DNA from: Pegea sp. RAD2-039
Taxonomy: Eukaryota > Chordata > Thaliacea > Salpida > Salpidae
Length of the DNA: 64,000 nt
Direction: 5' to 3'
Assembly (NCBI GenBank): GCA_034620365.1
Contig: JAQGEQ010000348.1
Location: 90,273-154,272 of the forward strand
Part shown: piece by piece, positions 4,508 through 63,065 of the stretch
Layout of the letters: every line of letters starts with the position of its first letter
How positions within the stretch are numbered: the stretch's first letter is position 1
The notes under the pieces: generated by a model
What the model was told of the DNA's origin: nothing
Databases searched by the model: none
Seen by the model: the letters and a program-made list of their open reading frames with translations, nothing else
Made by a program: the position numbers and the translations under genes

Positions 4508-6537
4508 AATGACACTGTTGTCTTCACAGTAAACAAATATGTAGAATAATTCATTTACATATACTTTTTTTCAGTTTTCGTTGTGTGGATGTCATTATAA
4601 TATTTTAAAGAAGTACGTAATCTTATTTTTTTTCACTTAACGCTAACATGACGAAGTTTATGATACAAAATCCATTTATACAAATTTTGTTAAAAATAAA
4701 TTCAATTTTTTTAGAAAAGTTTAGTTTTAGATGATAAATTACAAAATCAAGAAAACACAAAACAGTTAAAATCTATTTTTCTGTCAATCCTGTCTTATTA
4801 CTTTTAGTACTTATAGTACAAACTTATTTTATTAATTGAAATTATTGTTTACAATTTAAAATATATTAGATGCACAAGATCTTTTGTATAGAATTTCATT
4901 AAAAAATTTTATTTTTTTCACCTGAGACTGTGATGACCTCTTAGGCATAAAACTATTTGAAAAAAATTATTTATAAAAAAGAGAATATATGAAACTATTT
5001 TTTCATATTTTCAATTTTTTAATTATAATATAGTTGTTATGGTTGTTATTTGATAGTACATTCTGTTATTGTTATTATACTTTTTATGTGATTGCAGCTA
5101 TTTAAAACAATAAAAATGTTGATGGTTATGCACTAGTATTCACATTTAAACACTGATATAATATGAATATTTTTATATTATTTAATAATTATATAAGACA
5201 ACTTCATTTATATAAAACAAGAAAACTAAAGTTTATTGTATTTCCAAATTTGTGCTTTGGTTATATATTTCTAAAAATAATTTGGTGAAGATTTATAAAA
5301 AATATTTTACATTTTTTTAGTTAAACAATTTTACTGAGAAATAAATCAAAATAAAATTAAAAAATTAACGAAAAGATTTATTTTATAAATAAAAATAATC
5401 AAAATTTAATCAAGAAACAAAATCTCCTTTTAACGTCAACCAGTGATTTATTTGTTTTTGAAATCTCTTTTATTTTTATGTTGATTAATAGTTGTGAAAT
5501 TATTTGAAATTAGATGATAAATTAAATAAATTAAATAACAAATTAAGCTATAATAAAATAACTGTTTAAAATGGATTTAAATTTAAGAGGAAAATGAAAC
5601 AATTAAGAACTAGTTACTATTATAAGTATTTAAAACTACTTGAATATTTAGTTTATTATAATCATACAAGAAGTAAAATTTAAGCTTAAGTTTGTATTTA
5701 TTTATTTCTGTTTTCCATTTTAATAATTGCTTTATTTATTATCCTTAAAGAATAATTGTGTTTGTTCTTTTGTATTAACTTTGAATTAAAAATTAAAATT
5801 GAAAACAAAAAATTGAATAAATTTAATTTAGTTAATTTGAAATCAATCTCTTAATTTTCCAGTCAAATCATTCAATCTACAAACATTTTTCATTTATTTA
5901 GTATTTAAAAAATCAAAATTTAATGTTAATTTTGTAATAATTTTTAATAAACAATCAAAATAATTTCAATGAATTTGTTAGAAATTTTTACGCACGAATA
6001 GGTAATGTTTGATTTGTATCAAGATTTAATGTGTACCAATTTAAAAAAAAAATTAGTATTTTTGTTACACTTTCTCAAAACACTTTAAAACAGTAGAAAA
6101 AAGTAATAATGTTATAAAGTTAATACAGATGTACGGAAAGAACTGTTGAATGAGTGAAGTTGGTATAAAAAAATGTTTTCCTTGAAATTTATGTAAGAAA
6201 TCCAAATAATCATATTGTTACATTTTGTTGAATCTCAACTTTATAAAAGATGATTGCATTCTACTTGTTGATATCAACTGATTCTGTCAGTTTCAAAAAT
6301 AAAATGATCGCTAGCAAGCTCGCTAGTTAAAATCAACAATGTTACTTTATATAACCAACTACTCATCTTGTGCTTGTGGGTTGAACAATTTTTAAGCATT
6401 TATTTTCAATTACGTCGAGTTTTCTGTCATTCACATAAAATTAATTAATTTTACTAGATTTTCAAAAAAATTTAATGTACTTCTAATAATTAAAATAAAA
6501 TTTCTGATTATTTTGATTGATACGAAAGAGAACCATT
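4508..6537 (+). repeat. Long direct duplication, left part (copy at 39541-41560)
   Basis: About 2 kb matches 39541-41560 nearly base for base with scattered substitutions and small indels, starting at GACACTGTTGTCTTC and ending at GAAAGAGAACCATTATAT. No intact coding frame is shared, so the sequence is non-coding. It carries a minus-strand small-RNA-like module at 6276-6382. Confidence 0.85.
6276..6382 (-). ncRNA. Candidate PSE/TATA module, AACTGA..TCAGTT type
   Basis: Box AACCCACAAGCACAAGAT (6366-6382), TATA GTTATATAAAG (6345-6355) and inverted repeat AACTGACAGAATCAGTT on the minus strand (6276-6292). The variable core contains a further stem CTAGC/GCTAG (6311-6315 with 6322-6326). In the duplicate at 41.3 kb this stem keeps pairing through a G-T wobble, a hint of selection on RNA structure. 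Confidence 0.4.
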
Positions 6538-7599
6538 ATATAAAAATTTCTTAACATTTCATTTCAATTTTAAGTATTTAGGTATCTCATTTCTCTCTAA
6601 ATTCTATTCTAGGAAAATAAGTTTTGTTCTAATGTTATAGAATAAATGTTGCAGTTAAAACTGTTTTAAACATTTAGTGTTTGTAATGTTCAAACACTGT
6701 TCAAAAAAAATGCAGCAAAAATATTGATTTGAATTTACTTGGCAAACGATAGAAGATTAATATTAAAGATTTTAAATTTGCTAATTAAAGTAGTTTCTTA
6801 AGTTATAAAAAGCTATGTGAAGTTATTTATTTATCAGTCAGACTTACAGTAAATCATAACAAATATACCTTTAAATAAAATTTAGAGAATTTGTAAATGA
6901 CATTCATACATAGCCTACCAATAACGGATCTTATTTGGAAGCAATATCATTTAATAAAAGAATTTTTTTAGTTTATCATTCTTGCGTTTGAAACTTTTAA
7001 TTTTTCATTAGAATTAGTTTGAGTTTACTTAAAATTCTTGATATATATTAACTGTTTGTGTTTACAAAAGATTTGTAAAATTTTAAAAACTTATCACTAA
7101 AATAAGAATAATAAAATAAATAAATCTAGTGCTAATAATAAATACAATTCAAATATTAATTGAATAATATTCCAACTGCTAGAAAGTAACAGTTGATTTT
7201 GAAAACAAATTTTAGCCAGAGAAAATACCATGTTGAAAAATTTTTAACACTCCATATTGTAAATGCCTTACGGCGGTATCTTTGGTGTAAAAGGTCGTAC
7301 AGAATAAGTATTCTAATCATGACTTCTTACTCTAATGTTTGTGGGTTGTAGAGTTTTCACATACAGCTTGTTTTGAATTTATTAAAATCTAAATTTGTTT
7401 TCGTATTTAATCAAAAGTGTTAACCTACGAAAAATTTTAACTAAAACATAAATTTGTTGAAACATTTTTTTCGACAGTTAATCTCTGTGATTAAACAGTT
7501 TTATTTTTTTGATTTAAACTTCCATAAAAATATGAACTAATAAACTATATAAAATGCAGCAGAAAATAGACTTCTTAACAAAAATGTTCTAATTAAATT
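6538..7599. repeat. Segment present here, absent from the 41.56-kb copy
   Basis: The two copies of the long duplication run together again at TTGTTATCC (7600 and 41561). These 1.06 kb are therefore an insertion here or a deletion there. The right half (7080-7560) is also found near 11040-11500 and, shortened, near 34930-35270, so a deletion in the 41-kb copy is the simpler reading. Confidence 0.7.
7232..7347 (-). ncRNA. Candidate module, GGCGGTATTTCTGGTG-core type, copy 1
   Basis: The box (minus: CAACCCACAAACATTAGA) lies at 7331-7347 and a slightly decayed GTTGAA..TTTAAC inverted repeat at 7232-7248. Between them is a GC-richer core (CGGCGGTATCTTTGGTG on the plus strand, 7271-7287) that is conserved in two other copies. 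The TATA position reads GATTAGAATA, a weak match. Confidence 0.35.
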
Positions 7600-8263
7600 G
7601 TTATCCAGCTATTAAATAAGTGTAATTTTAAAGTAAAACTAATTATTAAGATAGTCAAAAAATTTTCAAACATCGTTTTTGTATTCTATCAAACAATTTT
7701 ATTAAATTCAACAATTTAAATATAAATATTTTTAATCAAAAATAATGATATAAACTTGTTTATAATAAAGTTAAAAAGAAAATTTATAAAAATTAATTAA
7801 TATCATAGAAACAACATTCAATTTGTTAGGGTACCTAGATATTTAGTTAAAGATTTTTCTAAATCTTTAAGCGTTTTATAGTTTTTAATTTTATCACTTT
7901 AATTATAATAAATTTATTAAGAATTGAAATCAGTTAAGTTTCAAGATTTTAAAAATGCTTTGAAAAATAAAGTTAAGATGTTATATTATAAACATTTAAC
8001 AAAAGTGAGAAAATCAATCAGTTAAAAATCACTGATTCAAAACTATTGAACTTTTATAACGAAAAAAACTGACATTCAGAAACATAAAACTATTTTTAAA
8101 ACAAAAACAAAATAAATTTTAAAAAAGAACCAAAAGAAAAACTAAAACAAAAGTTCCTGAAACATTATATTTACTTTCAAAGCATCAAGTTTGAGTGAAA
8201 AAGGTCTTAAACAATATAATAATTTAAGATTTGCGTTAGAAGCATAAAAAAATTTTATAAAAT

Positions 8264-8386
8264 GAGCTCACAAACACAAGGCAAACACGTTGTTATATAA
8301 AGCATCTAATTTATAACGATTTTATAAGTCTACAATTAAATTAGTAGGAAGTAAATTGAGAATTTTGAAAACTGATACTGTCAGTT
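8264..8386 (+). ncRNA. Candidate PSE/TATA module, AACTGATACTGTCAGTT type
   Basis: Box GAGCTCACAAACACAAGG (8264-8281), TATA GTTATATAAAG (8292-8302), variable core, then inverted repeat AACTGATACTGTCAGTT (8370-8386; 6-bp arms, 5-nt loop) followed by GCATTTAAC. Box start to repeat start is 106 bp. If the TATA sets initiation about 25-30 bp downstream, the RNA would be roughly 45 nt plus the stem-loop. Confidence 0.45.
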
Positions 8387-8504
8387 GCATTTAACAACAA
8401 GATTTATTGTATTCAATGATATAAAAGAATGCGGTGAGCTTGATCTTTTCTTTCATATGTTGTGTCATTCTTTTGTTAATAACTCTAACTGACACTGTCT
8501 TCAG

Positions 8505-8596
8505 TAAACAAATATGTAGAATGATTCATTTAAAAATTTCCATAATTTTTTTCTGTTTTCCTTGTGTTGATGCCATCATACTACTTTAAAGAAGTA
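8505..8596 (+). ncRNA. Second-tier module (diverged box, TACTT..AAGTA repeat)
   Basis: AGTAAACAAATATGTAGAAT resembles the main box, ATTTAAAAAT sits at the TATA position, and TACTTTAAAGAAGTA (8582-8596; 5-bp arms, 5-nt spacer) follows. The same trio recurs near 4530-4615, 39557-39650 and 42465-42555. The box-to-repeat spacing is shorter (about 77 bp), so equivalence to the main modules is uncertain. Confidence 0.2.
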
Positions 8597-9048
8597 CTTA
8601 ATCTTATTTGACTTAGCAAAGATTCTTATTTAAAAAAAGTTTTAAAGCTTTAAGCAAAGGGAATTGTTACTGTGAAAATTATAATAGTTTAAACAAGTTT
8701 CTATCAGGTATTGACTTGTTTTCTGTTTTCAACTCTTCGAAGACATCGATACTATTTAGTCAAGGTTTATTATCATTTACAAAGCTAATCAAAAATTTCA
8801 TATTTTTTTATAAGGTCAACAAAAAACTGCCTTTGCCCAAATATTTAAAGAATTAACGACATTTAAAAAGTCTCCTATACAAACAAACTAAAGCAGACCC
8901 TTCCACCAAATCTCTCTACAAACATATAACGTATGAATGTTGTCATTTTGCAGGAATCAATAACCCTTTACCTGTTTGTATATTTTGAGTTTTCTTAGTA
9001 AGTAATATGTGTTTATTTGCAACCGGAACAAGGCCCCCTTCTTGCTAG

Positions 9049-9065
9049 GCAGGTATCATACCTGC
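9049..9065. repeat. 17-bp inverted repeat GCAGGTATCATACCTGC
   Basis: Arms GCAGGTAT/ATACCTGC are perfect around a single base. It follows a GC-richer, repeat-conserved stretch (CAACCGGAAC..GCCCCC). The copy near 43 kb has lost part of the second arm. No module box lies about 100 bp away on either side. Confidence 0.5.
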
Positions 9066-9296
9066 TTGGCAAAACTAATAGACCATTGAAGTATAACTAA
9101 ATACTTTCAATAGAAAACAAAACTACTGTTCTTAAATATAGAAAATAATTACTGCAGCAAACAACTTGATAAGTAATTTAAAAACAGCAATAAACTAAGA
9201 TAAAAATTCACTTGTAAAAATCATTTCTATGAGATAAAAAAAACTAACCTTAATTTGTTTTCGTCTGTAGAAAACATGGATATTTTCAACTGTTTT

Positions 9297-9420
9297 AGTA
9301 CAAATTAGACAAGTGATTAATATAGTGCTAATGATATAATTCAAATCCTAATTTTAAAATTTTATTGAATCATTAAAAAAAAAAGATAACATGAAAATTT
9401 GGAAACTGATATTGTCAGTT
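9297..9420 (+). ncRNA. Candidate module with variant box, AACTGATATTGTCAGTT repeat
   Basis: Box variant AGTACAAATTAGACAAGTG (9297-9315), TATA-like TTAATATAG (9317-9325) and inverted repeat at 9404-9420 followed by GCGTTTAATCC. Box start to repeat start is 107 bp, the same as in modules with the standard box. Copies at 36518 and 43239 keep the arrangement. Confidence 0.35.
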
Positions 9421-10410
9421 GCGTTTAATCCTAAAACTATCTTTTATTTAATAGAACGTACCAATGTCATAAAACTTTTTCTAAAATTTTTCATTTAATT
9501 TGTTTAATTCTAAAAGACAATATCAAAAGTAAACAAGCATCTGTAATCTTAATCTTCATTGAATCATTTGTAAATTCTAAACGTTTTTGCTTTTGTTATG
9601 TTGATGTCATTATCTTTATTTAGAAAAACAACTAATTTATATAATATCATAATATATTATGAATATTGTATTAACACTGATGAACTACAAACCATTTGCA
9701 ATTTATAATAACAGGAATTTATGTTATCCGAGTTTATTGGCTTCATTATTCAGTTGGTTATCACTTTTAAACGACGCTGGTTTAAATAAATCTTAACTAA
9801 CATACTTATTTCTTATAAATCTAATGGTTTGTTGTGTAATTGTCGTCATTTTACTTTTGATGAATGTCTGAAGCTTGTATTAATAAGCTAACGCTACTAT
9901 ATATCAATGATATAAATTATTCTTCACTTATAGATGTTAATAGGGATATTATTAAACTCTCTTAATTTAATATTTAATCCAACATTCTTGATTTGGTTAT
10001 CAGTAAAGCTGACACGGTATAAACAATTTCATGTATAAATCAAAAAGTCATGTTAATCTTTGAGAGGCTGATGACATCATCTTTATGAATTAGACTTATA
10101 GTAATCAGTAACAAATTTAGCTCAGCATAATATTCAGAAGAGTTGAAACCATTTCATTTGAGTATTTGTAGTTGGCTTCCATAGATAATCTGTCAATAAC
10201 AGATCTGTTTTTGAAGCAAGATCAGGATTAAATGTAGTTTAAATAAAGTAAATTGTTTCAAGAGGTTTGTTTTTACTCTTTTCAAAGTTCTAATTCAAAC
10301 ATATAAAGTAAACAATTTATTTCAAACAAGAAACAATCTTTTATTAAGATGTCTTACATATTTTTATAGTTTAACACTTGTGTAAAAAGCTTTAAAAAAG
10401 TGTTTGAAAT

Positions 10411-10533
10411 GAGCTCACAAACACAAGGAAAGTATGTTGTGATATAAGGCATTCAATTTTATACCAGATTAACAAACTGTTGCTTGTATAGCTTTTAATT
10501 TTACTTTAAATTTGAAAACTGATACTGTCAGTT
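10411..10533 (+). ncRNA. Candidate PSE/TATA module, AACTGATACTGTCAGTT type
   Basis: Box GAGCTCACAAACACAAGG (10411-10428), TATA GTGATATAAGG (10439-10449), inverted repeat 10517-10533, then GCATTTAACGAAAAGATCTC. The variable core differs from that of the 8264 module although both ends are nearly identical. Confidence 0.45.
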
Positions 10534-11039
10534 GCATTTAACGAAAAGATCTCCGATATATAACGATATGAATAATGCTGTGGACTTGTATATTTCTTTC
10601 ATATTTTGTGTCTTTCTTTTACTTGTTAAACTCTGAATGATTCTGTCGTAAGTAAGCAAATATGTAGATTAAGATTTTAAATATTTACAAATTGTTTCTT
10701 TTTTCGTTGTATTGATGCAATCATGCTACTAGTAGTATAAAGAAGTAATCCTTTTTGTTTTCACTTTTCGCTACCATAATAACTTTTATGATATACAAAG
10801 CTTTTTCCAAAAGTCTTGTCAAAAATAAAGTTAATTGTTTTTGTTTGAATGTCGACATTTTAATCATAAATATTTCAGTCAGATTTAAGATTATAAATAA
10901 TGTAGTATTCAAGCTCTCGAGACTTTTACTTTTTTTTAATAGAATTAGTTTACTAAAAAGTTTTAATAGATTTAGATTAAATTTACAAAACGTTTTTGAT
11001 CTATCTACACTGTTTATGTATAAAAAAGAAATGTAAAAT

Positions 11040-11510
11040 TTTAAAAACGTATTACTGCAAATAAAATTAATAAATCTAGTGCTAATAAGAAATGCAATTG
11101 AAACAATAACTGAAAAGCATTTCAACTGCTAGAAGGTAGCAGTTGCTTTTCATAAGATTTTTTTTGTTAATGTAAACAGCATGTTGAAAAATGTTCAACA
11201 CTTCAAATTGTAAATGCCTTTCGGCGGTATTTCTGGTGTGGAAGGTCGAACAGAATCATCATACTAATCATGAATATTTACTCTAATGTTTGTGGGTAGT
11301 AAACATTTCGCAAACAACTTGTTTTGATTTCGTTAAAATCTAAACTTATTTTCGTATTTAATCAAAAGTGTTATCGTAAGAAGAATTTTAACTAAAAAAT
11401 AAATTTGTTGAAACAGAATTTTTCAACAGTTATTTTCTGTGATTAAACTATTTTGTTTTTGTTGATTTAAACTTACATTAAAATATGAACTAAACGACAA
11501 AAAACGCAGC
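11040..11510 (+). repeat. Interspersed repeat, relative of 7080-7560 and 34930-35270
   Basis: Shared landmarks are CTAGTGCTAATA, a CAACTGCTA..TAGCAGTTG inverted repeat (about 11123-11145, 9-bp arms) and the CGGCGGTATTTCTGGTG core. Chance frames on both strands at 10721-11125 lie in this repeat and in the related sequence just upstream. Confidence 0.75.
11183..11298 (-). ncRNA. Candidate module, GGCGGTATTTCTGGTG-core type, copy 2
   Basis: Inverted repeat GTTGAAAAATGTTCAAC (11183-11199; 6-bp arms, 5-nt spacer) and box (plus CTCTAATGTTTGTGGGTA, 11281-11298) are about 100 bp apart. The core CGGCGGTATTTCTGGTG is shared with copies near 7270 and 35120. The TATA position is weak (GATTAGTATG). Confidence 0.35.
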
Positions 11511-11525
11511 AAAAAAATGGATTTG

Positions 11526-12104
11526 TTAATCAAGCCGATTTTCTTCTTGTTGACGATGTTTTTCTTCTTGTTGACGACGTTTTTCTTCTTGTTGAAGGCG
11601 TTTTTCTTGTTGTAATCGACGATTTTTTTCCTCTTCTTGACAAAGCATCATTTCTCTTTGGTGGTAATTTGCTGACGCTTGTTGCATTCGCTGATATTCA
11701 GCCAAACGCTTTATTCTCTCCTGTTTTTCTCTTTCTCGTTCAAGTCTTTCTTGCTGTTCCTGCTTACGAAGTCTGTTTTCTTCTTGTTGGCGGCGTTTTT
11801 CTTCTTGTAATCGAAGATTTTCTTGTTCTTGTTGACGAAGCATCATTTCTCTTTGGTGGTAATTTGCTGACGCTTGTTGCATTCGCTGATATTCAGCTAG
11901 ACGATTTATTCTCTCCTGTTCTTCTCTTTCTCGTTGAAGTCTTTCTTGCTGTTCCTGCTTACGCAGTCTATTTTCTTCTTGTTGACGGCGTTTTTCTTCT
12001 TGTCGACGCATCTTTTCTTGCTCATGCTGAACACGTTTTTCTTCCTGTTGACGATGTTTTTCTCCTTGTTGTCGCTTATAAATTTCACTTGTAGAATTCC
12101 ACAT
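11526..12104 (-). CDS. Coiled-coil E/Q/R-rich protein with a 65-residue tandem repeat
   Basis: An ATG at 12104 (MWNSTSEIYKRQQ) opens 192 codons to TAA at 11526. The upstream extension of the frame to 12152 starts at TTG, so the ATG is preferred. The protein is almost entirely Glu, Gln, Arg and Lys in heptad-like order, predicting one long coiled coil. Two near-identical 65-residue units are offset by 195 bp (for example at 11645 and 11840). Each contains RLAEYQRMQQASANYHQREM, which is not low-complexity. GC content is well above the neighbours, and synonymous differences between the units suggest past selection. No family is recognised; trichohyalin-like and caldesmon-like regions look similar only by composition. 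It could be one exon of a larger gene: an acceptor-like TTGTTTGACAG lies just upstream. Frames on the opposite strand are shadows. Confidence 0.6.
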   Translation of the reverse strand: MWNSTSEIYKRQQGEKHRQQEEKRVQHEQEKMRRQEEKRRQQEENRLRKQEQQERLQREREEQERINRLAEYQRMQQASANYHQREMMLRQQEQENLRLQEEKRRQQEENRLRKQEQQERLEREREKQERIKRLAEYQRMQQASANYHQREMMLCQEEEKNRRLQQEKRLQQEEKRRQQEEKHRQQEENRLD

Positions 12105-12152
12105 GATGATAAAACAAAAATATTCTAAGCTTATTCCCTTAAGTCCTGTCAA

Positions 12153-12711
12153 ACAACTTACTTGAAATTTTGTACAGAAAACTTATTATAAAATTTTTTA
12201 ATTTATTTATTTGATTAGGATAAATTTAAAAAAAATATTTAAAAAGTAAAGGAAAAACATTGATGAAAAATTATACACTATTTATTTTTACTACTACTTT
12301 TGCCATAAATATTTTCTTTGCTTGAACTGTTTTTTAAGTTAAAGTAAAGAATTTGTTTACACAAATCTGCCAACAGATAATTTAGTAAGAATTATTTTCT
12401 TTTTTTATGTTATTAAATATCTAGGTTTCAAAATTTACTAGTGATTTCAAACGGTAAAAAAATAAATGAGTCTTTAAAAACAAATCATTTTAAAAACTTT
12501 TATAAATAATTATAGCAATTATAGAAAAGTATTTAACACTTAATAGTTTATTAACGAAAGTTTGCAGTAAAAGATTTAAAAAACATTTTTTTAAATATTT
12601 TAATAAAAGTTTACTAATCAATAATAATTTACTTTGATTTATATTAACTATGATAACTTAGATATAATTTAAAAACAAAATAAGATAAAATTTAAACAAA
12701 TTTATTTTCTA
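12153..12711. other. AT-rich spacer, no gene seen
   Basis: Nothing is recognised. It would hold the promoter or preceding intron of the coiled-coil ORF. A GTAAGT lies about 16 bp before the acceptor-like site and cannot form an intron with it. Confidence 0.35.
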
Positions 12712-20500: not shown

Positions 20501-20613
20501 GACCCTACAAACTCTAGATTAAAACAAAATTATAAATGCTGACAAATTTGGCAAAATCCTATCTTTTAATGCTCTCATGGTAGCTATTTTTGGAGTTGAA
20601 AAACTTTTTCAAT
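20501..20613 (+). ncRNA. Candidate PSE/TATA module, GTTGAA..TTCAAC type
   Basis: Box GACCCTACAAACTCTAGATT (20501-20520), TATA ATTATAAAT (20529-20537) and inverted repeat beginning GTTGAAAAACTT (20595-20613, one arm base changed). The core is unlike those of other members of this type. Confidence 0.4.
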
Positions 20614-23705: not shown

Positions 23706-23819
23706 AACCCACAAACACTAGAATAAAAATACTTTTATTAAGCAATTTTTAGCGCTAAATCTAATTGTCTTGCAAACCAATTTTTTTGAAAAATTTAATT
23801 TGAAGTCGACTAAATGTCG
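23706..23819 (+). ncRNA. Candidate PSE/TATA module, CGAC..GTCG type
   Basis: Box AACCCACAAACACTAGAAT (23706-23724), TATA-like CTTTTATTAAG (23732-23742) and inverted repeat CGACTAAATGTCG (23807-23819). The core holds a perfect 12-bp palindrome TTTAGCGCTAAA. Its inverted relative is at 52985-53099. Confidence 0.4.
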
Positions 23820-24635
23820 TCTAACCTTTACTAATATTAAAGTATTTGTAATCATGGTAGTCTGTAATTCGTAAATTAACTTTTGCTAGATTCTGTTTCG
23901 TTTTTTAATAACCTTTTACTTTAGTGATTTGAAAGTGTAATTCTATGAAGCAAAAACTTCATTATTATAAACAGCAAAATTATTTGATTTAATCAATTAA
24001 ATGTATCTGTGAATAAAACATCGTCTTTAATATATTTTACTTATTATTGCGATTATCGAAAATAATAACCTTTATTTTTATCCACATTTAATTAGTGAAG
24101 CTATATTTTAAAAACTCCTAGCATTCTAACTGTATAACAATAAAATTAAGCAAGTTGTTTAATATTGTAAAATATGTTAAATAAATTTGAGATTTTTAAA
24201 CTATTACTGAAAGTTTTTCTACGTGTCTTGGTAAAAGGTTGTTTTATTATAGTTAAACACTTTAATCATTTTTTCAAATATTTTGTAAAAATTCAAGTCG
24301 TATTTTGTTTTGTTGATGCTGAGTAAGCTTCTAACCTTTTGGGTATATTTTTCTACTTAAATTTGTTTACAATTGTTGTGCTTTTCACATCATCACCTAA
24401 TCTTTGAATTTAATTAGAGAGAAACGTCGCTACGTCAAATGAACTTCATCACAATCAAACTTGCTTCTAAACTAGTTTCCTGTTTTCTAAGTGCAAACAT
24501 AAGAAGCAAATACTAAACCAAATTAATAATAACATTTTATTTAAATAACTATATCAAGTTTTTCTACCTTTGTTCAAAATTGTTGAGTTTTGCGTTTGAT
24601 TTTTTATGAAAAAACAATATTTGATAATTAGATGC

Positions 24636-24742
24636 AAAAGTGCACTTTTCAAAATACATTAAAAAAAATTGGGCTCGGGAAAAAAAGTATCGATATTCTA
24701 AAGGGTTATACATTATCTGCGTACAATCTTATGTTTGTGGTA
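24636..24742 (-). ncRNA. Candidate PSE/TATA module, AAAAGTGCACTTTT type
   Basis: Minus-strand box ACCACAAACATAAGATTG (24725-24742), TATA in AATGTATAACCC (24703-24714) and a perfect 14-bp palindrome AAAAGTGCACTTTT (24636-24649). The related module at 54.0-54.14 kb has lost the palindrome. Confidence 0.4.
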
Positions 24743-42336: not shown

Positions 42337-43238
42337 GCATTTAACAAAAAAATTTATTGTATTCAATGATATAAAAGAATGCGATGAGCTTGTTCCTTTC
42401 TTTCATATGTTGTGTCATTCTTTTGTTATGTGAATTCTAAATGACACTGTCTTCAGTAAACAAATATGTAGAATGATTCATTTAAAAATTTCCACTTTAT
42501 TTCTGTTTTTGTTGTGTTGATGTCATCATACTACTTTAAAGAAGTACTTAATCTTATTTGACTTAGCAAAGATTTTTATTAAAAAAAGTCTTAAAGCTTT
42601 AAGCAAAGTAATTGCTTCTGTGAAAATTATAATGGTATAGACAAGTTTCTATCAGGTCTTGACTGGTTTTCTGTTTTCAACTCTTCGAAGACATCGATAC
42701 TATTTAGTCAAGGTTTATTATCATTTACACAGCTAATCAAACATTTCATATCTTTTTATAAACTCAACAAAAAACAGCATTTGCCCAAATATTTGAAGAA
42801 TTAACGACATTTAAAAAGTCTCCTATGCAAACAAACTAAAGTAGACCCTTTCACCAAATCTCTCTACAAACATATAACTTATGAATTTTGTCATTTTGCA
42901 GGAATCAATAGCCTGTTTGTAAATTTTGAGTTTTCTTAGTAAGTAATATGTGTTTATTTGCAACCGCAACAACGCCCCCTTGCTTGCTAGGCAGGTATCA
43001 TCACTGCTTGGCAAAACTAATAGACCATTGAAGTATAACTAAATACTTTCAATAGAAAACAAAACTACTGTTCTTAAATATAGAAAATAATTACAGCAGC
43101 AAACAATTCGATAAGTATTTTAAAAACAGCAATAATCTAAGATAAAAATTCACTTGTAAAAATCATTTCTATGAGATCAAAAAAACTAACCTTAATTTGT
43201 TTTCGTCTATAGAAAACAAAGAAATGTTCAACTGTTTT

Positions 43239-43362
43239 AGTACAAATTAGACAAGTGATTAATATATTACTAATGATATAATTCAAATCCTGATTTTAAA
43301 ATTTTATTGAATCATTAAAAAAAAAGGATAACATGAAAATTTGGAAACTGATATTGTCAGTT
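43239..43362 (+). ncRNA. Variant-box module, duplicate of 9297-9420
   Basis: Box AGTACAAATTAGACAAGTG (43239-43257), inverted repeat AACTGATATTGTCAGTT (43346-43362) and GCGTTTAATCC are unchanged from the 9.3-kb copy. Confidence 0.35.
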
Positions 43363-44354
43363 GCGTTTAATCCTAAAACTATCTTTTATTTAATAGAACG
43401 TACCAATGTCATAAAACTTTTTTTTAAATTTTTCATTTAATTTGTTTAATTCTAAAAGACAATATCAAAAGTAAACAAGCATCTATAATCTTAATCTTCA
43501 TTTAATCATTTGCAAATTCTAAACTTTTGTGCTTTTGTTATGTTGATGTCATTATCTTTATTTAGAGAAACAACTAATTTATATAATATCATAATACATT
43601 ATGAATAATTGTATTAACACTGATGAACTACAAACTGTTTGCAATCTTTAGTAACAACAATTTATGTTATCCGAATTTATTGGCTTCATTATTCAGTTTG
43701 TTATCACTTTTAAGTGAGGCTGGTAAAAATAAATCATAACTAACATACTTCTTTTTCATAAATCTAATGGTTTGTTGTGTAATTGTCGTCATTTTACTTT
43801 TGTTAAATATCTGAAGTTAGTCTGAATAAGCTAATGCTACTATATATCAATGTTATAAATTATTCTTCACTTATAGATGTTAGTAAAGATATTATTAAAC
43901 TCTCTTGATTTAATATTTAATCCAACATTCTTGATTTGGTTCTCAGTAAAGCTGACACGGTATAAACGATTTCATGTATAAATCAAAAAGACATGTTGAT
44001 CTATAAGAGGCTGATGACATCATCTTTATGAATTAAACCTATAGTAATCAATAACAAATTTAGCTCAGCATAAGATTTAGAAGATTTGAAGTCATTTCAT
44101 TTGCGTATTTGTAGTTGGCCTCCATAGATAATCTGCCAAAAGCAGATCTTATTTTGAAGCAAGATCATTCATCAAAAGTAGCTTAAATAAAGTAAATTGT
44201 TTCAAGAAGTTTGTTTTTACTCTTTTCAAAGTTCTAATTTAAATATATAAAGTAAAAAATTAATTTCAAACAAGAAATAATCTTTTATTAAGATGTCTTT
44301 CAGATGTTTATAGCTGAACACTTGTGTGAAAAGCATTATAAAAATGTGTTAAAT

Positions 44355-44477
44355 GAGCTCACAAACAAAAAGAAAGTAAGTTGTCATATAAGGCATTCAA
44401 TTTTATACCAGATTAACAAATTGTTGCGCTTATTGTTTCTACTATTTGTTTAAATTTTAAAACTGATACTGTCAGTT
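44355..44477 (+). ncRNA. Candidate PSE/TATA module, duplicate of 10411-10533
   Basis: Box GAGCTCACAAACAAAAAG (44355-44372), TATA CATATAAGG (44385-44393), inverted repeat 44461-44477, then GCATTTAACGAAAAGATTTC. Confidence 0.4.
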
Positions 44478-44608
44478 GCATTTAACGAAAAGATTTCCGA
44501 TATATAACGATATGAATAGTGCTGTGGACTTGTATATTTCTTCCATATTTTCTGTCTTTCTTTTGCTTGTTAAACTCTGAATGATTCTGTCGTAAGTGAG
44601 CAAATATG

Positions 44609-45405
44609 TAAAAGTTATATTTACTTATGCTTCTACAGTGCAGTTATTTGTCTGCGCTAAGTTTCGTAAAATGGGATACTTTGTATCTTTTTATTATATT
44701 TCTGCAGTCATGTTGCTTCTTTCTCGTGATAAGAGATGAATAATTTTCTATCTGCAGACATGCGTTAAATACAATAAACTAAAAACAAAAATAAAAGAAA
44801 CAAACAAATAAAAAAATTATTCTGAAAAGTGTCACTTTATATCAATAATCATTTATTCAAATTTCAGTTTTTGTAATTTTATTTAATAAGAAATATATTA
44901 ATAGAATTAGATTTTATCAACCAAATGATAAAGTATATTTTTTTGCTTCCAACACTTTACCAAAGTTTATTGTTTTGGTTTTCCTGATAAAGTTTTTTTT
45001 GAATAAATTAGAAACATATTTTCACTTCTAGTACATTTTTTTATAACTTACCATGAGCGTTTTGTAATTGAAAAATGTTTGAAATTTATAGTGAAAGTGA
45101 TTTCTTACAAAATTTTACAAAATACAAATGAACTTCTCGTAGCGCGAGGTACTTTTTTCAGGTAATTTTGTTTGTGTTTATTCTGTTAAAATCAACTAAT
45201 AATTTTAATTCAAATTAATTATACTTGAAGGGAGTAAAAACGTTTTTTAAATAAACTAAGAGTTTGAATTCTGGTTGCAGCATAAATCGTTTTAGTTTTA
45301 ATGAAAGATAGTTTGTTAGATATAAGTTTTGATGGATAGAAACAGCCTGTAGTAGAAGATTCGAATTAAAAGTAAGGAGAAAAGATAAACTGAAATAAAA
45401 AAATA
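44609..45405. other. Unique spacer with a CTTCTACAGTG end-like motif
   Basis: Directly after the duplication, CTTCTACAGTG (44630-44640) matches 49986-49996. In reverse it reads CACTGTAGAAG, like some DNA-transposon ends. No coding sequence was recognised. Confidence 0.3.
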
Positions 45406-45477
45406 TGCTGTAACCTGGATTCGAACCTGGGTTGTCACGGCAACAACGTGAATTACTAACCACTATACGATTACAGT
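45406..45477 (-). tRNA. tRNA with His-type body but GTT (Asn) anticodon
   Basis: The 72-nt cloverleaf on the minus strand reads ATCGTATAGTGGTTAGTA in the D region, as in animal tRNA-His, with B box GGTTCGAATCC. The anticodon loop TTGTTGC places GTT at 34-36; tRNA-His has TTGTGGC (GTG), so one substitution gives an Asn anticodon. The anticodon stem TCACG/CGTGA pairs perfectly. The acceptor pairs except A1-C72, and the T stem has a central A-A mismatch. These defects and the missing G(-1) suggest a pseudogene or SINE progenitor rather than a working tRNA-Asn. Confidence 0.7.
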
Positions 45478-45482
45478 ACATG

Positions 45483-45554
45483 TAGCAGAGGATGGCTTCG
45501 ATCCATCGACCTCTGGGTTATGGGCCCAGCACGCTTCCGCTGCGCCACTCTGCT
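45483..45554 (-). tRNA. Initiator tRNA-Met (CAT)
   Basis: A 72-nt cloverleaf beginning AGCAGAGTGGCGCAGCGGAA and ending CCATCCTCTGCTA. Hallmarks of the eukaryotic initiator are present: A1-U72 pair, GGG/CCC at the base of the anticodon stem (CTGGGCCCATAACCCAG) and ATCGA instead of TTCGA in the T loop. One base differs from the usual animal sequence (G instead of A at T-loop position 60). Internal A and B boxes are intact. It lies 5 bp upstream of the His-type tRNA on the same strand, close enough for a dimeric transcript. TTTTATTTCAG-like T runs follow the pair. Confidence 0.9.
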
Positions 45555-46851: not shown

Positions 46852-46968
46852 GTTGAAATTTATTCAACCCCAAAATGTAGTCTACAAACGTATATCACTT
46901 ATTGGACCACGAATTGCTAATAGTCTCATCAGTCTTTATAAAGTTGTTTCAATCTAAAGTTTGTGGCG
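46852..46968 (-). ncRNA. Candidate PSE/TATA module, GTTGAA..TTCAAC type
   Basis: Minus-strand box GCCACAAACTTTAGATTG (about 46950-46968), TATA CTTTATAAAG (46934-46943) and inverted repeat GTTGAATAAATTTCAAC (46852-46868). The core contains TGTAGTCTACA, a further short stem. Confidence 0.45.
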
Positions 46969-46969
46969 T

Positions 46970-49473
46970 ACATAATAAGTTCAAATTACAAACGTATGCC
47001 ACAATGCCCGGCATTTATTTATTAATGAAAGAAAATCAAAACAAATTACTTTTGATTTTGGTTTGACACATAAAACTGTTGAGTTAAGAAATATTTATGA
47101 GGCTTCATTAGTTTAAGAAAAATAGATCTACCCCAAAACACTTTGACCGAGCCAATTTATTATAAATAACATTTCGCTGACTCACTGCATAACTTTCTTC
47201 AGATTCAACAGATATTTTTTATGAGATTGTGTGTTAGCGAAATCGGTAACTACAACTTTCTCATTATCAATCATTTCAAACTCATGAAATTTTATTAAAT
47301 TTTATACAAACGAATATTGAATTTTAAACGAAAGATTTAATTTTACTGAAGTTGTCATTTATTTAAAGGATTACATCCTGGAATATTTAAAAAGTTGTTT
47401 ATAAATTCCTTTTTAATCTCTTTTATAAATAATTCGTAGAATAAGTATCACTCTCATTTTTCAATATTTTTTTTTTGAATTTACAACAAAGAAACAAAAT
47501 TATACATTTAAAATACAAAAGAAAAATATTCAAAATACTTAAGCTCCAAGAGGTCAAAAAAAACCTCTACTTTTTTTTTAAATAAATTTGCAAAAGTATA
47601 AATGTAATAATTAGTATTTGATTTTTGTTAGTTAACATTTATTCAATTGGTTATAAAATCAAATTTGAAACTGAATTTCTTAGTTGCTTAAAATATCAGT
47701 TTAAACAACTTTCCACAGATTACTAATCTTAGTTGACAACAAAATGTTTTCTATTACTGTCATAACTTTTATAAATAGAAATTCGTCATTTCGACAACAT
47801 TTATTTTTTTTTTTAGGTAAAGTTGTTTTAAGAAAATATTAACTTTGATCTAAAATAAAAGAAACTTTGCTATAAAATAAAATTTTTTTTTTGTGTAAAT
47901 AAAAACGTTTTTATATAAAATTAGGAAAATGTATTTATAAATTTTTGATTTCTTGCTTTTTTAATCGAAAAAGTTGACGCTAGACGTCGCTGATGATAAA
48001 TCATTTTTAAAACCTTGCATTGCTTCAGGCTATGTTTTTGTAAATTTTTCCTACTCAGTAATTTTACTAAACTCAAAAAGAAAGTATCAAGATGAGATCT
48101 ATTTCTAAGATGTTTGCAGTAGTAAAAGTCCTATTTTAGATATTACATCATCAGTATCTTTGATATTTGCACTGCTTAGTTATTTCAGTTCTGATAAACA
48201 ATTTAAGCTGATCAAAATTAGCGGATAATGTTTTCCACTGAATTAAAAAACCTTTAAAAATGAATAATTTGTTTTCAGATAAGTTTCTTAACTATGTGAA
48301 TAGTTTGGAAAAAAATTATAAAACCTTCTAATCAAGTCTATAAGATCAAATGAGTCCTTATCTAAACATAAACAAATTTGTTGTTAAAAAATAATAAAAC
48401 AACTTTAAAGTCATTGAACAGAAAAACATTTTTTTTAATTATTTGATTATTGCATGTTCTCATAATGAATACATTTAAGTGATTTTAAACTGAATTCTTT
48501 TGTTTCAACTTATAGCTTCTAATATAAAAATATCTTGGTTTCTTTATTTATACTTAAAGACAATTCTCCATTACTAAAATTTAAAGCTTGATCAAGTTTC
48601 ATAAAACCATTACTAAAAAATCTGTAGTTGAAAACGTTATGTGTGAAGTAATGAAACAAACATTATTTTCTGAAATAACCAAAAAATGCGAAGTATAATT
48701 CACTAATAGTATATAATTTTGCAAATATTATCTAAGATATAGATATATAATATTATATAATAGCTATAAAACTAACTTTAACCAATTGTTTTCTTACAAT
48801 ACCAAAATAAGGTTCGAATAACATTAGTCAGAATATAAAGACAAATGTTTCAACAATTTCTACCATGTCAATTCATTAAGAGTCACAACAAAACTGACTT
48901 CAACAAATTATTTGCAGTTTGTCTCACTTTTATCGGAAATTTATTCTATTAGACTCTAAATTATAATATTTTTTAGACTATTATTGCATTTTAATATTTA
49001 TTTTCCAGCCACAAGATGTAACTAATAATAACTGACCATAATAGTTTTATTTTCATATTTTGCAAAATTGTAAATGTTGCATTCTTAGATCTGTTAAATA
49101 AATAGTCTAGATCAGAGTCTAGTTTTCAAACTCATACAACTAGCTTCATATAAAAGTATTTTTATAATGTTTAGTTTTAAAGAACTACTTGAAAAATTTA
49201 AACTAAAACGTATTTTGCACCTAGAAGTAAGATATGATCTTCTTTAAGACTGATGTAAAAGAAATAAAAAATGTCTCACAGTTTTCGATAAATGAGACTA
49301 ACAGAGAAAATAAAAGTTAAAAAATACTTTCCTCCGGACAAACACTAGATCGAAAGAAATTGATAAAAGAAAGAAATAATTATTAAATCACTAGATCCTT
49401 AGACAACTAATTTAATAACATTTATTAATTTTGAAATCGACAATCTGTCGATTAATTTTATTTATTTTTTTTT
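46970..49473. repeat. Mostly AT-rich; third-family repeat copy at 47973-48520
   Basis: The third-family copy starts TGACGCTAGACGTCGCTG and follows the order of 37548-38040. The remainder (46970-47970, 48520-49470) shows no genes or modules. Confidence 0.45.
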
Positions 49474-49662
49474 TATATATATAAATGCGAAGGAGGGTGC
49501 CTAAAGAGAGCACATCTCACTAACACACATTCTCAGTGGTTTTTTATGGTTTTTATTTCTCAGGAGTTTTATATGTCTCTACCTGGGGTCGAACCCGGTA
49601 CTTCCAAGCTAGATGTACCTTGGAGCTAGGTGTAGTAACCGCTTCGCCACCAAGCAGGACGC
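49474..49662 (-). mobile_element. tRNA-derived SINE, full-length, minus strand
   Basis: Reads on the minus strand GCGTCCTGCTTGGTGGCGAA (A box), then CGGGTTCGACCCCAGGTAGA (B box), body, GCACCCTCCTTCGCATTTAT and a TATATATA tail. It differs from the 37.2-kb copy at scattered sites and by a short insertion in the head, so both are old. Confidence 0.8.
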
Positions 49663-50589: not shown

Positions 50590-51480
50590 AAAGTATCATA
50601 TCTTTGATTAGTTAGTTTTTAATATTGGTTACTATCAGAAAATGAAAATTTTAAAATAATGTTTTGTAAAGTTGTTTTTAAAACTCATTTCTACTGAAAC
50701 TATCCAAAGTAGAAAGTTTTTAATTATTCAGACTTAAGAATGCATTTAAAAATTCTATTTTAAAAATACTAAATTCGTTAAAACTTTTTTTTCTAGTTGT
50801 AAATATTTTGTCAAATTTATCAGTTATTTGTTTACATGAATAAAATAAATTTTCAACTCGAATCAATTTTATGTTGCTACTTTCAGAGAATTGAAACTCA
50901 AGGTAGTCTTGTTAGTTGCTTAATCGATTTCTGTTGAAAGTATTTCAACTTCAAATTGGGTTTCTAATGTATTGTTTACAATCATCTGAGAACTTCTCAG
51001 AACTTTTTGGTCGTAACAACTTTGTTACAATCTACAATTTGTGGGATCAAGTTTAAACGAAAAAGTATCCGTAATTTTGATTTTGTATTTTTTATGTTAA
51101 ACCCTTTTTTGACAAAGAAAAGTAAAAGATAATATTTATTATTTTGTATTATCTATTAGTTTATTTAGTTTAAACAATTAATGTTGAAGTTGGGTTGACT
51201 ATAAAGGTAATATTTTAGAACTATGATTCATCTTACTGATCTTGATATTATTAATAAGTAATCCCATGAAAAAGTTTTAATTTTTTAGAACTTCAAAAAC
51301 CTAAAGTAATGTTTTTAATGATACTTGATTTAAATTGAACCAACAATATTATTATAATAATAATATTTTCATTAATGTTATAAATTGATTAAAGTACTCG
51401 TAATACTTAACGATACAACAAACCTAAGATAATAAGTAGAAGTTGTATAACCTTGTAGATAACCATAAAGCAAGCATTCA
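50590..51480 (-). repeat. Inverted copy of 24640-25540
   Basis: Carries the inverted counterpart of the 25099 module and relics of the 24636 module. Confidence 0.75.
50933..51046 (-). ncRNA. Candidate module, GTTGAA..TTCAAC type with core hairpin
   Basis: Minus-strand box GATCCCACAAATTGTAGATT (about 51029-51048), GTTGTTACG at the TATA position (weakened) and inverted repeat GTTGAAATACTTTCAAC (50933-50949). The core has a perfect CTGAGA-ACT-TCTCAG hairpin (50986-51000) that the inverted relative at 25.1 kb lacks. Confidence 0.4.
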
Positions 51481-52984
51481 TCTCTGAAATATTTTCTGAT
51501 AATAAATATATGTGATTTACAAGATGTATATTTCAATCTTATGATCAATTAAATATCTTGGGTTATAATTTGCTTGAAGTTGTAATTTGGACTTAGATAA
51601 CTTTTTATGGAAAATACAATTAGTGAGTAAGTTGAATAAAGTGAACTTCTACTATTTACAGATAATACGATAAAATTAATTTAAGTCAAAACTTTATTTC
51701 ATTTATCTAAACAGTTCTAGGATAATGTGAAAAAACTTGAATAGGTTTTCTAGCTTTGAAATAATTACTTTAAAATTTTAAGAGTATCACTAAAATCTGT
51801 TTCATATGTAGTTTCATCTGATAACTTTATTTCATAAAAATATATATAAATAATTTTAAAAATTATAACTATTATGAACATTAAATTTATTTTATATAAT
51901 AACTAAATAATTTATAATGATATAAGAACTTATATGACGGCAAAGTGAATTATTTAAAGGTAAAAAAATAAACTAATTATAGATTTTTCTTATAAAAATT
52001 TTATAACCATAGCAATTCACAACCCCAAGAAAAAATGTTTGACTAAATATTTTTAACTTTTATATTTTAATCTTGTTGTTTTACCACAATATTGAACTTT
52101 CTACTTCACAGCAAAATTTTAACAATCGTTTTTAATGTTTATTGTTCTGTTAGTAACATTTTTTAAAAGTTCAGATGTTTATCTTTTAGCTTAATTATTC
52201 CTCATCTACAATCGTAATACTAAAAGTTTATAATAATTATTATAATTTAAACACTTAAAAATGAGCTTTTTTAAAGCAAAAAAATAAACATTAAATACTA
52301 ACTTTCAAGAAAACCACCTTTAAATATAAATTGGATGATGTTTTTCATTTTAAAAATAATTTTATATATTTTGTACAAGATGATACATTTTAAAACGTTT
52401 GTATCAAAACCATAAATATAATAATTTTAACCTAAAATAGATTAATTAAATTTGTTTTTCTACTGTAGATTACAAAAAAAGTAAAAATTAAAAATTTTTA
52501 TTCGTTTTTGTTAAAATTATTTTGTAAATTAAAATAGAATTTTAATTTTTCTTTATTGTTACAAATTAATATGAAAATTTTAAGATTATTATTTATAAAA
52601 TAAAGATTTCCATTGTAAATTAATTCTTAGCAAAGTAATTTTGATGAATTTGAAAATTAAACTTCTAAATTCACTTTGTTCATCTTCTTATTATAGTTTG
52701 TTTTATAAATTTGATTTGATTTAGAATTGATTGTATTTTCCTTTTAGAGTAGTTCTGTTCTTTCTTTAATAATTCTTAATTTTGATTTCTTTCTGTCAAT
52801 CACAAATACACTTAATTGGTTAAATCAAATAAGGTTGTTGTTAATAATAATGAAGTTATAGCTTGATAAAATTACACTGTCAAATAACTAAAGTTAAAGA
52901 TTATTATACAACAAAAGAGAATCTATCAGATATAAATTTATGAATTACAAACTAACATTTTTAAATACATTAGTAATGGTTATA
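51481..52984. repeat. AT-rich; inverted copy of 31630-31890 at 52110-52390
   Basis: Outside the inverted repeat segment no exons, tRNAs or boxes are visible. Confidence 0.5.
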
Positions 52985-53099
52985 TCGACATTTAGTCGAC
53001 TTCAAATTAAAGATCTAGCATAATCGACTTTGCAAGCAAATGGTAGATACTCCTAAAAATACTTAATAAACAGTATTTTGATTCTAGTGTTTGTGGGTT
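52985..53099 (-). ncRNA. Candidate PSE/TATA module, TCGAC..GTCGA type
   Basis: Minus-strand box AACCCACAAACACTAGAAT (53081-53099), TATA-like TGTTTATTAAGT (about 53061-53072) and inverted repeat TCGACTAAATGTCGA (52985-52999; 5-bp arms, 5-nt spacer). The core contains TTTGC-AA-GCAAA (53029-53040). This is the inverted relative of 23706-23819. Confidence 0.45.
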
Positions 53100-53623: not shown

Positions 53624-53731
53624 GTTGAAAAATATTTCAACTCAAAAATTTATTATTCAAAACTTCCGAGTAATCCTAAGTTAGTTTTTTTATACTTTAT
53701 TACTTTGTCGCTATCTAGAGTTTGTGGTATC
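53624..53731 (-). ncRNA. Candidate PSE/TATA module, GTTGAA..TTCAAC type
   Basis: Minus-strand box GATACCACAAACTCTAGATA (about 53712-53731), TATA in AAGTATAAAAA (about 53686-53698) and inverted repeat GTTGAAATATTTTTCAAC (53624-53641). Confidence 0.4.
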
Positions 53732-54031
53732 AAGTTCAAATGAATTCATTTTTTAAAGTTGTTATGAAAGCTTTAGAAAATATCTATGATTAAATAATTT
53801 ACTTTTTCCTTCATAATAATTAATACATACACATTCAAACTTACAATAATTTAAAACTTGTAACAATGTTTATGTAATTCTAATAAGTGTATAGTATACC
53901 CAAAAAAAGTAAAATGAAAAACTTTAAATGTAGATTTTTTTGATGATGAGATTTAACTAAATTTTATTTTAAAGAAAATACAATCTCCGTATTACTTACT
54001 TATGAAAACTACTTAGCTGATAAACAGATGC

Positions 54032-54144
54032 AAAAGTGAATCGTCCAAATATTGCATTTATAAATAATGGTTTTGGTATTTCAGTGAAAAAGGAATTTTT
54101 AAATGTTATTTATAAGCTGGATATAACCTTATGTTTGTGGTTTC
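54032..54144 (-). ncRNA. Decayed relative of the 24636 module
   Basis: Box GAAACCACAAACATAAGGTT (54125-54144) and a good TATA GCTTATAAATAAC (about 54105-54117) remain, but the palindrome is reduced to AAAAGTG (54032-54038). Confidence 0.25.
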
Positions 54145-57194: not shown

Positions 57195-57310
57195 GATCCC
57201 ACAAACACTAGATTTCAGAAAAGTTTATAAATAATATAAAGTACATTCAAACTGGACGCTACAGTCGTGTGGGAATCATTTTGAAATTTGGAGTTGAATT
57301 ACCTTTCAAC
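57195..57310 (+). ncRNA. Candidate PSE/TATA module, GTTGAA..TTCAAC type
   Basis: Box GATCCCACAAACACTAGATT (57195-57214), TATA GTTTATAAAT (57223-57232) and inverted repeat GTTGAATTACCTTTCAAC (57293-57310), then GAAATATTAATTAAG. The core is GC-raised with ACTG..CAGT pairing around GGACGCTA. Confidence 0.45.
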
Positions 57311-57529
57311 GAAATATTAATTAAGTAGAATAACTTCAGTTTCTATTCTTTACAACAAACAACAACAAAATAATTTAGTTCAAAGCTCTTGTAAACATCG
57401 ATACTGACAACGTGATAGAATGTTTAGAAATACAAAACTTTTATTTCAGCAAAATTAGTATTTCTACTTCTACTTTAGATTAAAAAATAAAATTAATCAG
57501 CAAGTACATCTGAAGAAAAAATCAGACTT

Positions 57530-58595: not shown

Positions 58596-58709
58596 GTTGA
58601 ACAATGTTTCAACTCCAAATAAGGTTTCAAAAGACCGTTTATATTTAGCTTAGCATTTTTTTTAATTTCCTTATTTATCACTTTGTCGTAATCTAGAGTT
58701 TGTGGGGTC
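58596..58709 (-). ncRNA. Candidate PSE/TATA module, GTTGAA..TTCAAC type
   Basis: Minus-strand box GACCCCACAAACTCTAGATT (about 58690-58709), TATA-like GTGATAAATAAGG (about 58669-58681) and inverted repeat GTTGAAACATTGTTCAAC (58596-58613). Confidence 0.45.
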
Positions 58710-62609: not shown

Positions 62610-62940
62610 TTTGAAAATTATTTTGAAGATCGAACGAAAAAATTCTGAGTCTTATAGTACTCTCGATTTACTATTTTAAAAACAAAAAGTCACATGGCTT
62701 TTGACTTAATTTAAATTTGTCAAAACGATGGATAATTTTTAAAATTAATCATTGAAGTAGAAATAACTTTAAATCTAAATTAAATAAAACTTCAAAAGAA
62801 AAATTAAACTAATTTGGTTTGTATAACAGTAAACTTATAAAAAAAATTCTTATCAACTTTAAATCAAATTTTCTATTTGAAAAATATTTGTCAACAAAAT
62901 ATTTATCCATAAAATTATGAAATTAATTTCATTTGAACTT

Positions 62941-63065
62941 GATCCTATACACTTCAGATTGCAACAACGTTTATAAGAAATGAAAAGTAAAATAAAACTC
63001 AATCTTTCGTAAAGGAATACAAAGTTTTCAAATTTGGAGTTAAAGTACTTTACAATGAAACTTTA
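62941..63065 (+). ncRNA. Candidate module, partly decayed GTTGAA..TTCAAC type
   Basis: Box GATCCTATACACTTCAGATT (62941-62960), good TATA GTTTATAAGA (62969-62978). The repeat position holds GTTAAAGTACTTTACAA (63049-63065), whose centre TAAAGTACTTTA is a perfect palindrome though the arms differ from the family. Confidence 0.35.

Follow-up and report, generated by a model that had tools for sequence, protein, structure and literature searches.

The final 64 kb of contig C273 (154,272 bases) in the assembly of the salp Pegea sp. RAD2-039 (105.7 Mb, 387 contigs) carry a family of short dispersed modules, each with a conserved box, a TATA box, a variable core, a Sm-site-like motif and an inverted repeat. 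This stretch is referred to as the window; other contigs of the assembly are likewise given by C numbers. The modules are probably genes for small Sm-class RNAs, with a constant promoter and tail and a variable 5′ payload, their transcription and function being predicted from the sequence. The argument is built on the identity of the promoter, the spacing of its elements, the Sm-like site, the covarying hairpin, the clustering in the places listed below, the constrained ends and a faster mean change of the core. An earlier note on the same DNA did not mention the Sm-site-like motif ahead of the hairpin, nor that modules cluster elsewhere in the genome and that many cores change faster.

Promoter element and polymerase class

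With at most three mismatches, the box CYCACAAACWCWAGRTT was matched 27 times in the window, 15 times on the plus and 12 times on the minus strand, against a mean of 2.29 and a maximum of 6 in 100 dinucleotide shuffles, which bears out the conserved box of the earlier note. A matrix built from 24 window boxes gave 35 matches on C64 (78.7 kb), 27 in C273:1-90000 and 26 in the window, and C32 had no match over 30 kb; one mononucleotide shuffle of each stretch gave 2, 1, 0 and 0 matches, respectively. The box is this genome's own promoter element of small nuclear RNA (snRNA) genes, the proximal sequence element (PSE), common to the U2, U5 and U6 genes. All eight U2 genes read (19 matches) have CCCACAAACACTAARCTTT, in one case with CCCGCAAAC, 58 bp before the start and TATA at +29, counted from the box start. 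The box was present at all four U5 sites read (15 matches) as CCCACAAA or CCCACAAAT, with TATA at +29 at the three sites whose sequence reaches far enough. In the ten U6 genes read (15 matches) the box lies 63-64 bp before the start, in five of them in the form CTAACAAAC; TATA is at +32 to +34 in nine genes, and the remaining one has TATTTA. The comparison of the box with the snRNA PSE of the same genome had been proposed in the earlier note as a check on its guess of a PSE; the two are related, and the guess was right. The U2, U5 and U6 genes are intermingled on both strands in common clusters (C39:921-940 kb and C32:1.26-1.28 Mb).

A TATA box (at least five of six positions matching) begins at +27 to +30 in 72 of 83 modules, a set obtained from 107 modules by removing the 24 in which no Sm-like site and hairpin were found automatically. 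Because AT-rich DNA gives TATA by chance, the signal is the fixed position and not the presence, which alone is uninformative: 57 of the 83 modules have a TATA in an 18-bp upstream control interval. At this position the TATA box noted earlier downstream of the box is confirmed. The spacing is like that of U2 and U5 and unlike that of U6. U2 and U5 are transcribed by RNA polymerase II (Pol II), U6 by RNA polymerase III (Pol III); Pol II is therefore likelier than Pol III as the polymerase of the modules. T-runs, at which Pol III is expected to stop, are present in many units, and together with the U2/U5-type spacing they make a Pol III type 3 gene less likely; this candidate was disfavoured, as the modules lack the PSE-TATA distance of U6. 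The SNAPc-dependent snRNA or Pol III type 3 promoter proposed before thus stands as a snRNA-type PSE with a TATA box, without the assignment to Pol III.

Sm-like site and 3′ hairpin

The inverted repeat is a 3′ hairpin directly after a Sm-site-like motif. In the 83 modules it starts 87-114 bp past the box start (median 97), close to the 100 bp given in the earlier note. When the modules were searched automatically, 83 of 107 had a hairpin (5 bp or longer) no more than 13 nt from the Sm-like motif, against 5 of 107 shuffled ones; the motif set had been written after the modules had been viewed. In a second test on 121 modules, of which 110 have the Sm-like motif, the arm was fixed at most 2 nt from the motif, and 86 modules showed 6/6 pairing (shuffled tails: mean 9.3, largest 15). 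Twenty unique stems were distinguished, including some doubtful fits; across them all six positions change on both sides and each takes at least three Watson-Crick pair types; examples are GTTGAA/TTCAAC, AACTGA/TCAGTT, AGATGC/GCATCT, GTCGAC/GTCGAT and GCCCGT/ACGGGT. Pairing and covariation support the stem-loop end that had been suggested earlier. As an independent test, 20 loci were chosen by the hairpin pattern alone. At 16 of them an upstream box scores higher than the 99% level of shuffles; of the others, two belong to clusters and retain a box in visible decay (C23, C102), and the two isolated ones (C3, C67) have none. In the window, stems of 6 bp or longer were detected by script for 19 of 24 modules, while the shorter or imperfect stems of the other five (7329, 20504, 23708, 24725, 54125) were placed by eye. 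An Rfam scan matched tRNA alone in the window and nothing in seven further stretches examined.

Modules in the window

The 29 candidates of the window comprise 27 from the box search and two from the matrix scan (44358 and 33735), with the hairpin letters chosen by eye. Box, Sm-like site and hairpin were present in 25 of them, two of these weak (24725 and 54125), in accordance with the approximately 25 modules first reported; the span then given, 6276-63065, starts exactly at a module. At the candidates 19264, 26343, 33735 and 55900 the Sm-like/hairpin tail was not found. The modules, together with one probable decayed copy, are:

6276-6380, minus strand: module with box, TATA, core, Sm-like site and hairpin AACTGACAGAATCAGTT
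7230-7345, minus strand: module of the conserved-core subfamily (ATACCGCCGnAAGGCATTTAC), stem imperfect
8267-8386, plus strand: module of the AACTGA..TCAGTT subfamily; within a duplication of about 6 kb, likeness is lowest in its core (25/40 at 8314)
10414-10533, plus strand: module of the AACTGA..TCAGTT subfamily; likeness of the core 72%, compared with 93% over the duplication
11181-11296, minus strand: module of the conserved-core subfamily
20504-20613, plus strand: module of the GTTGAA..TTCAA(C/T) subfamily
23708-23821, plus strand: module of the GTCGAC..GTCG subfamily, stem imperfect
24630-24741, minus strand: module of the GATGCA..TGCATC-type subfamily, hairpin weak
25102-25213, plus strand: module of the GTTGAA..TTCAAC subfamily
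30413-30532, minus strand: module of the AACTGA..TCAGTT subfamily
32283-32403, plus strand: module of the AACTGA..TCAGTT subfamily
34089-34208, plus strand: module of the AACTGA..TCAGTT subfamily
35060-35175 (approximate limits), minus strand: probable decayed module of the conserved-core subfamily, no recognisable box
35963-36080, plus strand: module of the AACTGA..TCAGTT subfamily
39329-39432, plus strand: module of the AACTGA..TCAGTT subfamily, core short
41295-41399, minus strand: module, duplicate of 6276-6380
42218-42336, plus strand: module, duplicate of 8267-8386
44358-44477, plus strand: module, duplicate of 10414-10533, identified by the matrix scan
46852-46967, minus strand: module of the GTTGAA..TTCAAC subfamily
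49335-49453, plus strand: module with hairpin AATCGACA..TGTCGATT
50933-51045, minus strand: module of the GTTGAA..TTCAAC subfamily
52984-53097, minus strand: module of the GTCGAC..GTCGAT subfamily
53624-53728, minus strand: module of the GTTGAA..TTCAAC subfamily
54027-54141, minus strand: module of the GATGCA..TGCATC-type subfamily, hairpin weak
57198-57310, plus strand: module with exact box, GTTGAA..TTCAAC subfamily
58596-58706, minus strand: module with exact box, GTTGAA..TTCAAC subfamily

A segmental duplication joins 4520-10670 to 39600-44650 (93.2% identity over 5,022 aligned sites, with an insertion or deletion of about 1 kb) and contains the module pairs 8267/42218, 6364/41383 and 10414/44358. 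High copy number, conserved ends, a variable middle and an inverted repeat would also be features of a miniature inverted-repeat transposable element (MITE) or another short transposon, the alternative named in the earlier note. Duplicate copies, however, stay alike for kilobases past the module instead of ending at an element border. In 1,256 pairs with unrelated flanks, mean likeness was 0.53 upstream, 0.60 in the promoter, 0.47 in the core and 0.60 in the tail. With the fixed PSE-TATA spacing and the compensatory stem changes in addition, a transposon fits poorly and is highly improbable. The modules had also been described as independent of the surrounding repeat; this holds for the unrelated-flank pairs, which share little beyond promoter and tail, but some modules are copies made by duplication.

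Other features of the window are 195-bp tandem repeats encoding a Q/E/R-rich, coiled-coil-like frame on the minus strand (11489-12182), adjoining genes for tRNA-Asn and tRNA-Met with a gap of 3 bp (45405-45554), and two related frames with a common YKCEGGCLKRAHL, probably a dispersed repeat (37250-37420 and 49456-49626).

Variable core

Assuming an RNA start 29 bp after the TATA box, 40 of 44 non-redundant modules were measured: the variable part has a median length of 31.5 nt (22-49) and the predicted RNA one of 58.5 nt (48-77). The GC content is 31% in the cores and 22% in the 40 bp before the box. The cores have little structure (mean z -0.21, s.e. 0.11, in 61 non-redundant cores; downstream control +0.06, s.e. 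0.11). A SmY-like RNA with two hairpins was disfavoured on account of this low structure and the variability of the cores. Spliced-leader (SL) RNAs with variable leaders would likewise be Sm-class, SNAPc-driven and potentially multicopy; yet there is no fixed leader, and the excess of splice donors is small, GTR occurring in 53 of 83 cores (64%) against 59% expected. Rfam SL1 did not match, its control being equally silent. This reading was disfavoured for the missing leader and the donor count, and we regard it as very unlikely.

From 68 homologous pairs 19 independent ones were taken, each module being used once and pairs more than 97% alike in the near flanks (the nearest 120 bp) being dropped. 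Divergence was 17.2% in the cores, 9.3% in the near flanks and 5.3% in box, Sm site and hairpin. The ratio to the near flank is thus 1.86 for the cores (95% interval 1.37-2.35) and 0.57 for the box, Sm site and hairpin (0.42-0.76), the latter being less diverged than the flank in 16 of the 19 pairs. The GC content was rejected as the cause of the core acceleration: 31% against 22% was estimated to explain a ratio of about 1.15, not 1.86. Within the segmental duplication the cores are 68% (8267), 72% (10414) and 92% (6364) alike, and the lowest 40-base sliding windows are those at 8314 (25/40), at about 7721 (27/40) and in the core of 10414 (28/40). Functionless snRNA-type pseudogenes, spreading as a dead array through segmental duplication, would account for loci within recent duplications, for the broken tails of about a quarter of the modules (24 of 107, and 35 of 121 by the second test) and for the loss of the box in several copies. 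Such an origin does not explain ends that change more slowly and cores that change faster than the near flank, nor stems that covary; we consider such an array unlikely.

Two kinds of functional RNA were considered. If the modules were mini-genes for PIWI-interacting RNAs (piRNAs) of the nematode kind, a short Pol II precursor would provide the piRNA in its first 30 nt or so, with Sm site and hairpin defining or protecting the 3′ end. The length of the variable part suits this reading, and a protein of the PIWI clade is encoded on C3: a piece of it best matches Piwi-like 1 and Piwi-A, and its YRDGVGDGQ is presumably of the PIWI type. Autonomous loci in clusters, on both strands and with a snRNA-type promoter, are also known from nematode piRNAs, as described in parts of PMC6436959. 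On the other hand, a constrained Sm site and hairpin would be superfluous for a 28-nt piRNA precursor, and TATA boxes are general in the modules, while the Plectus Pol II piRNA loci are without TATA according to that paper. The YRNT-type start signal of nematode piRNA loci was not observed either, no start pattern being enriched near the assumed start in 40 modules. We treat piRNA mini-genes as a real possibility, although short of a favoured one.

The other kind is a set of stable guide ribonucleoproteins, in which the intact, Sm-bound RNA would pair through its unpaired 5′ part with other RNAs, like U7 or the viral HSURs. An unpaired 5′ end, a Sm site and a 3′ hairpin are the anatomy of U7, and cores with little structure beside a constrained tail are in line with such guides. 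Targets were sought by a blastn-short search of the cores against the window, C64, a part of C273 and 30 kb of C32. Of the 316 matches, 146 lay away from listed modules, nearly all with 12-19 nt; the longer ones had 21, 22, 27 and 30 nt, and the 30-nt match is a decayed module. One core was searched in the whole genome and found in 34 places with at most two mismatches. The 11 places viewed were seven modules with box (one on C128) and four decayed copies without box, but no separate target. We know of no precedent for a very large set of different Sm guide RNAs, which also speaks against this reading; it is possible, if somewhat doubtful.

Number and clustering in the genome

The pattern CACAAACNYNAGATT had 438 matches in the genome and 7 in a reversed control; TTTGRAGTTGAAN{5,7}TTCAACR had 352 and 0, respectively. 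Among the first 100 matches in contig order, those of the former concentrate on C64 and C92, those of the latter on C23, C60, C64, C92 and C102. The exact box was matched 105 times, and the 100 matches listed are concentrated on C64, C98, C104, C109, C136, C261, C267, C273, C274, C275, C286 and C287. At four lone exact boxes outside clusters (C32, C59, C63, C245) a tail was sought and not found; those on C63 and C245 have TATATAA at a roughly U6-like spacing and perhaps belong to other snRNA-type genes. In 233 kb examined, 88 modules were counted where the two patterns match 30 and 17 times. Scaling to the genome gave about 1,285 or 1,822 modules, depending on the pattern, by a rough calculation which assumes an equal mix of subfamilies in all clusters and counts stray matches too. 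This suggests, very roughly, 1,300-1,800 modules genome-wide.

On contigs that carry modules, C273:74606-75409 has a C2H2 zinc-finger frame with repeated HTGEKP linkers, and C64:37069-40885 has reverse-transcriptase-like frames on the minus strand, named by eye as a non-long-terminal-repeat retrotransposon. The assembly also encodes Sec31, fragments of Argonaute and PIWI proteins and C2H2 zinc fingers, which indicate an animal, and no feature pointing to a nematode was found; a divergent Argonaute with YRRGLP instead of YRDG is located at C11:1008880-1010230. With the ciliate code, nine frames of at least 300 aa were obtained. COX1 was searched for in the assembly without a match, and telomere repeats were not seen in six contig ends.

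Proposed mechanism and its weighing

Transcription, polymerase, Sm binding, RNA ends and a guide or piRNA function are inferred from sequence in the following scheme. SNAPc would bind the box and TBP the TATA at about +29, and Pol II would start some 58 bp past the box start. The RNA of about 50-65 nt would comprise approximately 30 variable nucleotides with little structure, a Sm-binding site (AAUUUUGRA) and a 3′ hairpin of 6-8 bp, which may protect the RNA end. Promoter and Sm/hairpin tail would be a constant chassis under selection, and the 5′ part a payload that outpaces the adjacent DNA in many subfamilies. With such fast-changing payloads the clusters would yield a varied repertoire of RNAs. 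This payload would most likely base-pair with nucleic acid targets, either in a stable, U7-like Sm ribonucleoprotein or after trimming to a 21U-like piRNA.

Several observations weigh against the Sm-class gene family with a fast payload. A perfect 6/6 arm is absent from 35 of the 121 modules, therefore some modules are probably pseudogenes. No enrichment of an initiator (YR) was present near the expected start in 40 modules, and the 5′ end of the RNA, derived from an assumed start, is therefore a loose prediction. There is no clear 3′-box: a matrix from eight U2 genes scored 0.87 downstream of the modules and -0.17 in shuffles, just slightly higher. Relative to shuffles, the cores have an excess of structure of about two standard errors. 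Their divergence exceeds that of the near flank in 14 of 19 pairs, with p 0.064 in the sign test and p 0.008 in the Wilcoxon test. Flanks 120-400 bp upstream diverge by 16.2%, near the core level, in a poorer alignment with many gaps, and flanks 120-380 bp downstream by 11.7%; as the distant flanks diverge more than the near ones, some constraint may act on the latter, and the acceleration may be too high an estimate. The acceleration is an average, several of the 19 pairs having identical cores, and one subfamily keeps its core in the 34 places mentioned. In the duplication, one of the three modules (6364) shows no dip in its core, and a stretch without known module (about 7715-7770) is nearly as diverged as the cores.

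Beyond the gene family itself we tentatively propose an expandable repertoire of snRNA design: clustered Sm-class mini-genes, probably more than 1,000, whose payload of about 30 nt might be under diversifying selection and might form a library for RNA-guided recognition of transposons, viruses or rival chromosomes. To our knowledge, besides nematode piRNAs no animal has snRNA-type promoters driving so large a set of loci. A description of such clustered snRNA-like mini-genes was not found in the open-access literature, which is weak evidence of absence. If transcribed, the modules would show that the snRNA machinery was put to use for a variable RNA repertoire independently or much earlier, the constant part being a Sm-type tail; how SNAPc-driven piRNAs arose would then be testable outside nematodes. 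An arms race would be suggested by payloads that outpace the DNA beside them.

Comparison with known systems

U7 and the viral HSURs are short Sm-class RNAs with an unpaired 5′ part, a Sm site, a 3′ hairpin and a PSE promoter. The modules share with U7 the unpaired 5′ part, the Sm-like site and the 3′ hairpin. They differ from U7 and the HSURs, which have one or a few genes and fixed targets, in their large number and the changing 5′ parts; their Sm motif is of the canonical type.

The dictyostelid Class I RNAs, according to parts of PMC7919456, are similar in their size of about 60 nt, a conserved upstream element, a variable interior and many genes; their 5′ and 3′ ends are joined by a stem, and they have an 11-nt motif, whereas folds of the 29 window candidates, with assumed RNA ends, often show a local 3′ hairpin, placed after a Sm-like site, and the genome is animal-like. 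SmY is also a small Sm-class RNA family with several genes, twelve in C. elegans, and has two stem-loops with a conserved first loop (PMC11229312); the 5′ part of the modules is variable and little structured.

Another close parallel is given by the nematode piRNA loci, whose snRNA-derived motif, clusters of up to megabase scale and cleavage by Integrator are described in parts of PMC6436959 and PMC7917550; the upstream motif of Plectus hardly differs from the snRNA PSE (PMC6436959). Like the SNAPc/Ruby-motif 21U-RNA loci in the same passages, the modules are predicted autonomous Pol II mini-genes in clusters, with a variable payload and a PIWI protein present in the genome. The analogy to 21U-RNA loci drawn in the earlier note is kept for promoter type, clustering and payload length, but the passages on the 21U loci include no Sm site. 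Compared with the 21U-RNA loci of these passages (PMC6436959), the modules are distinguished by a general TATA box, a Sm-like site, a covarying 3′ hairpin and many payloads that outpace their near flanks.

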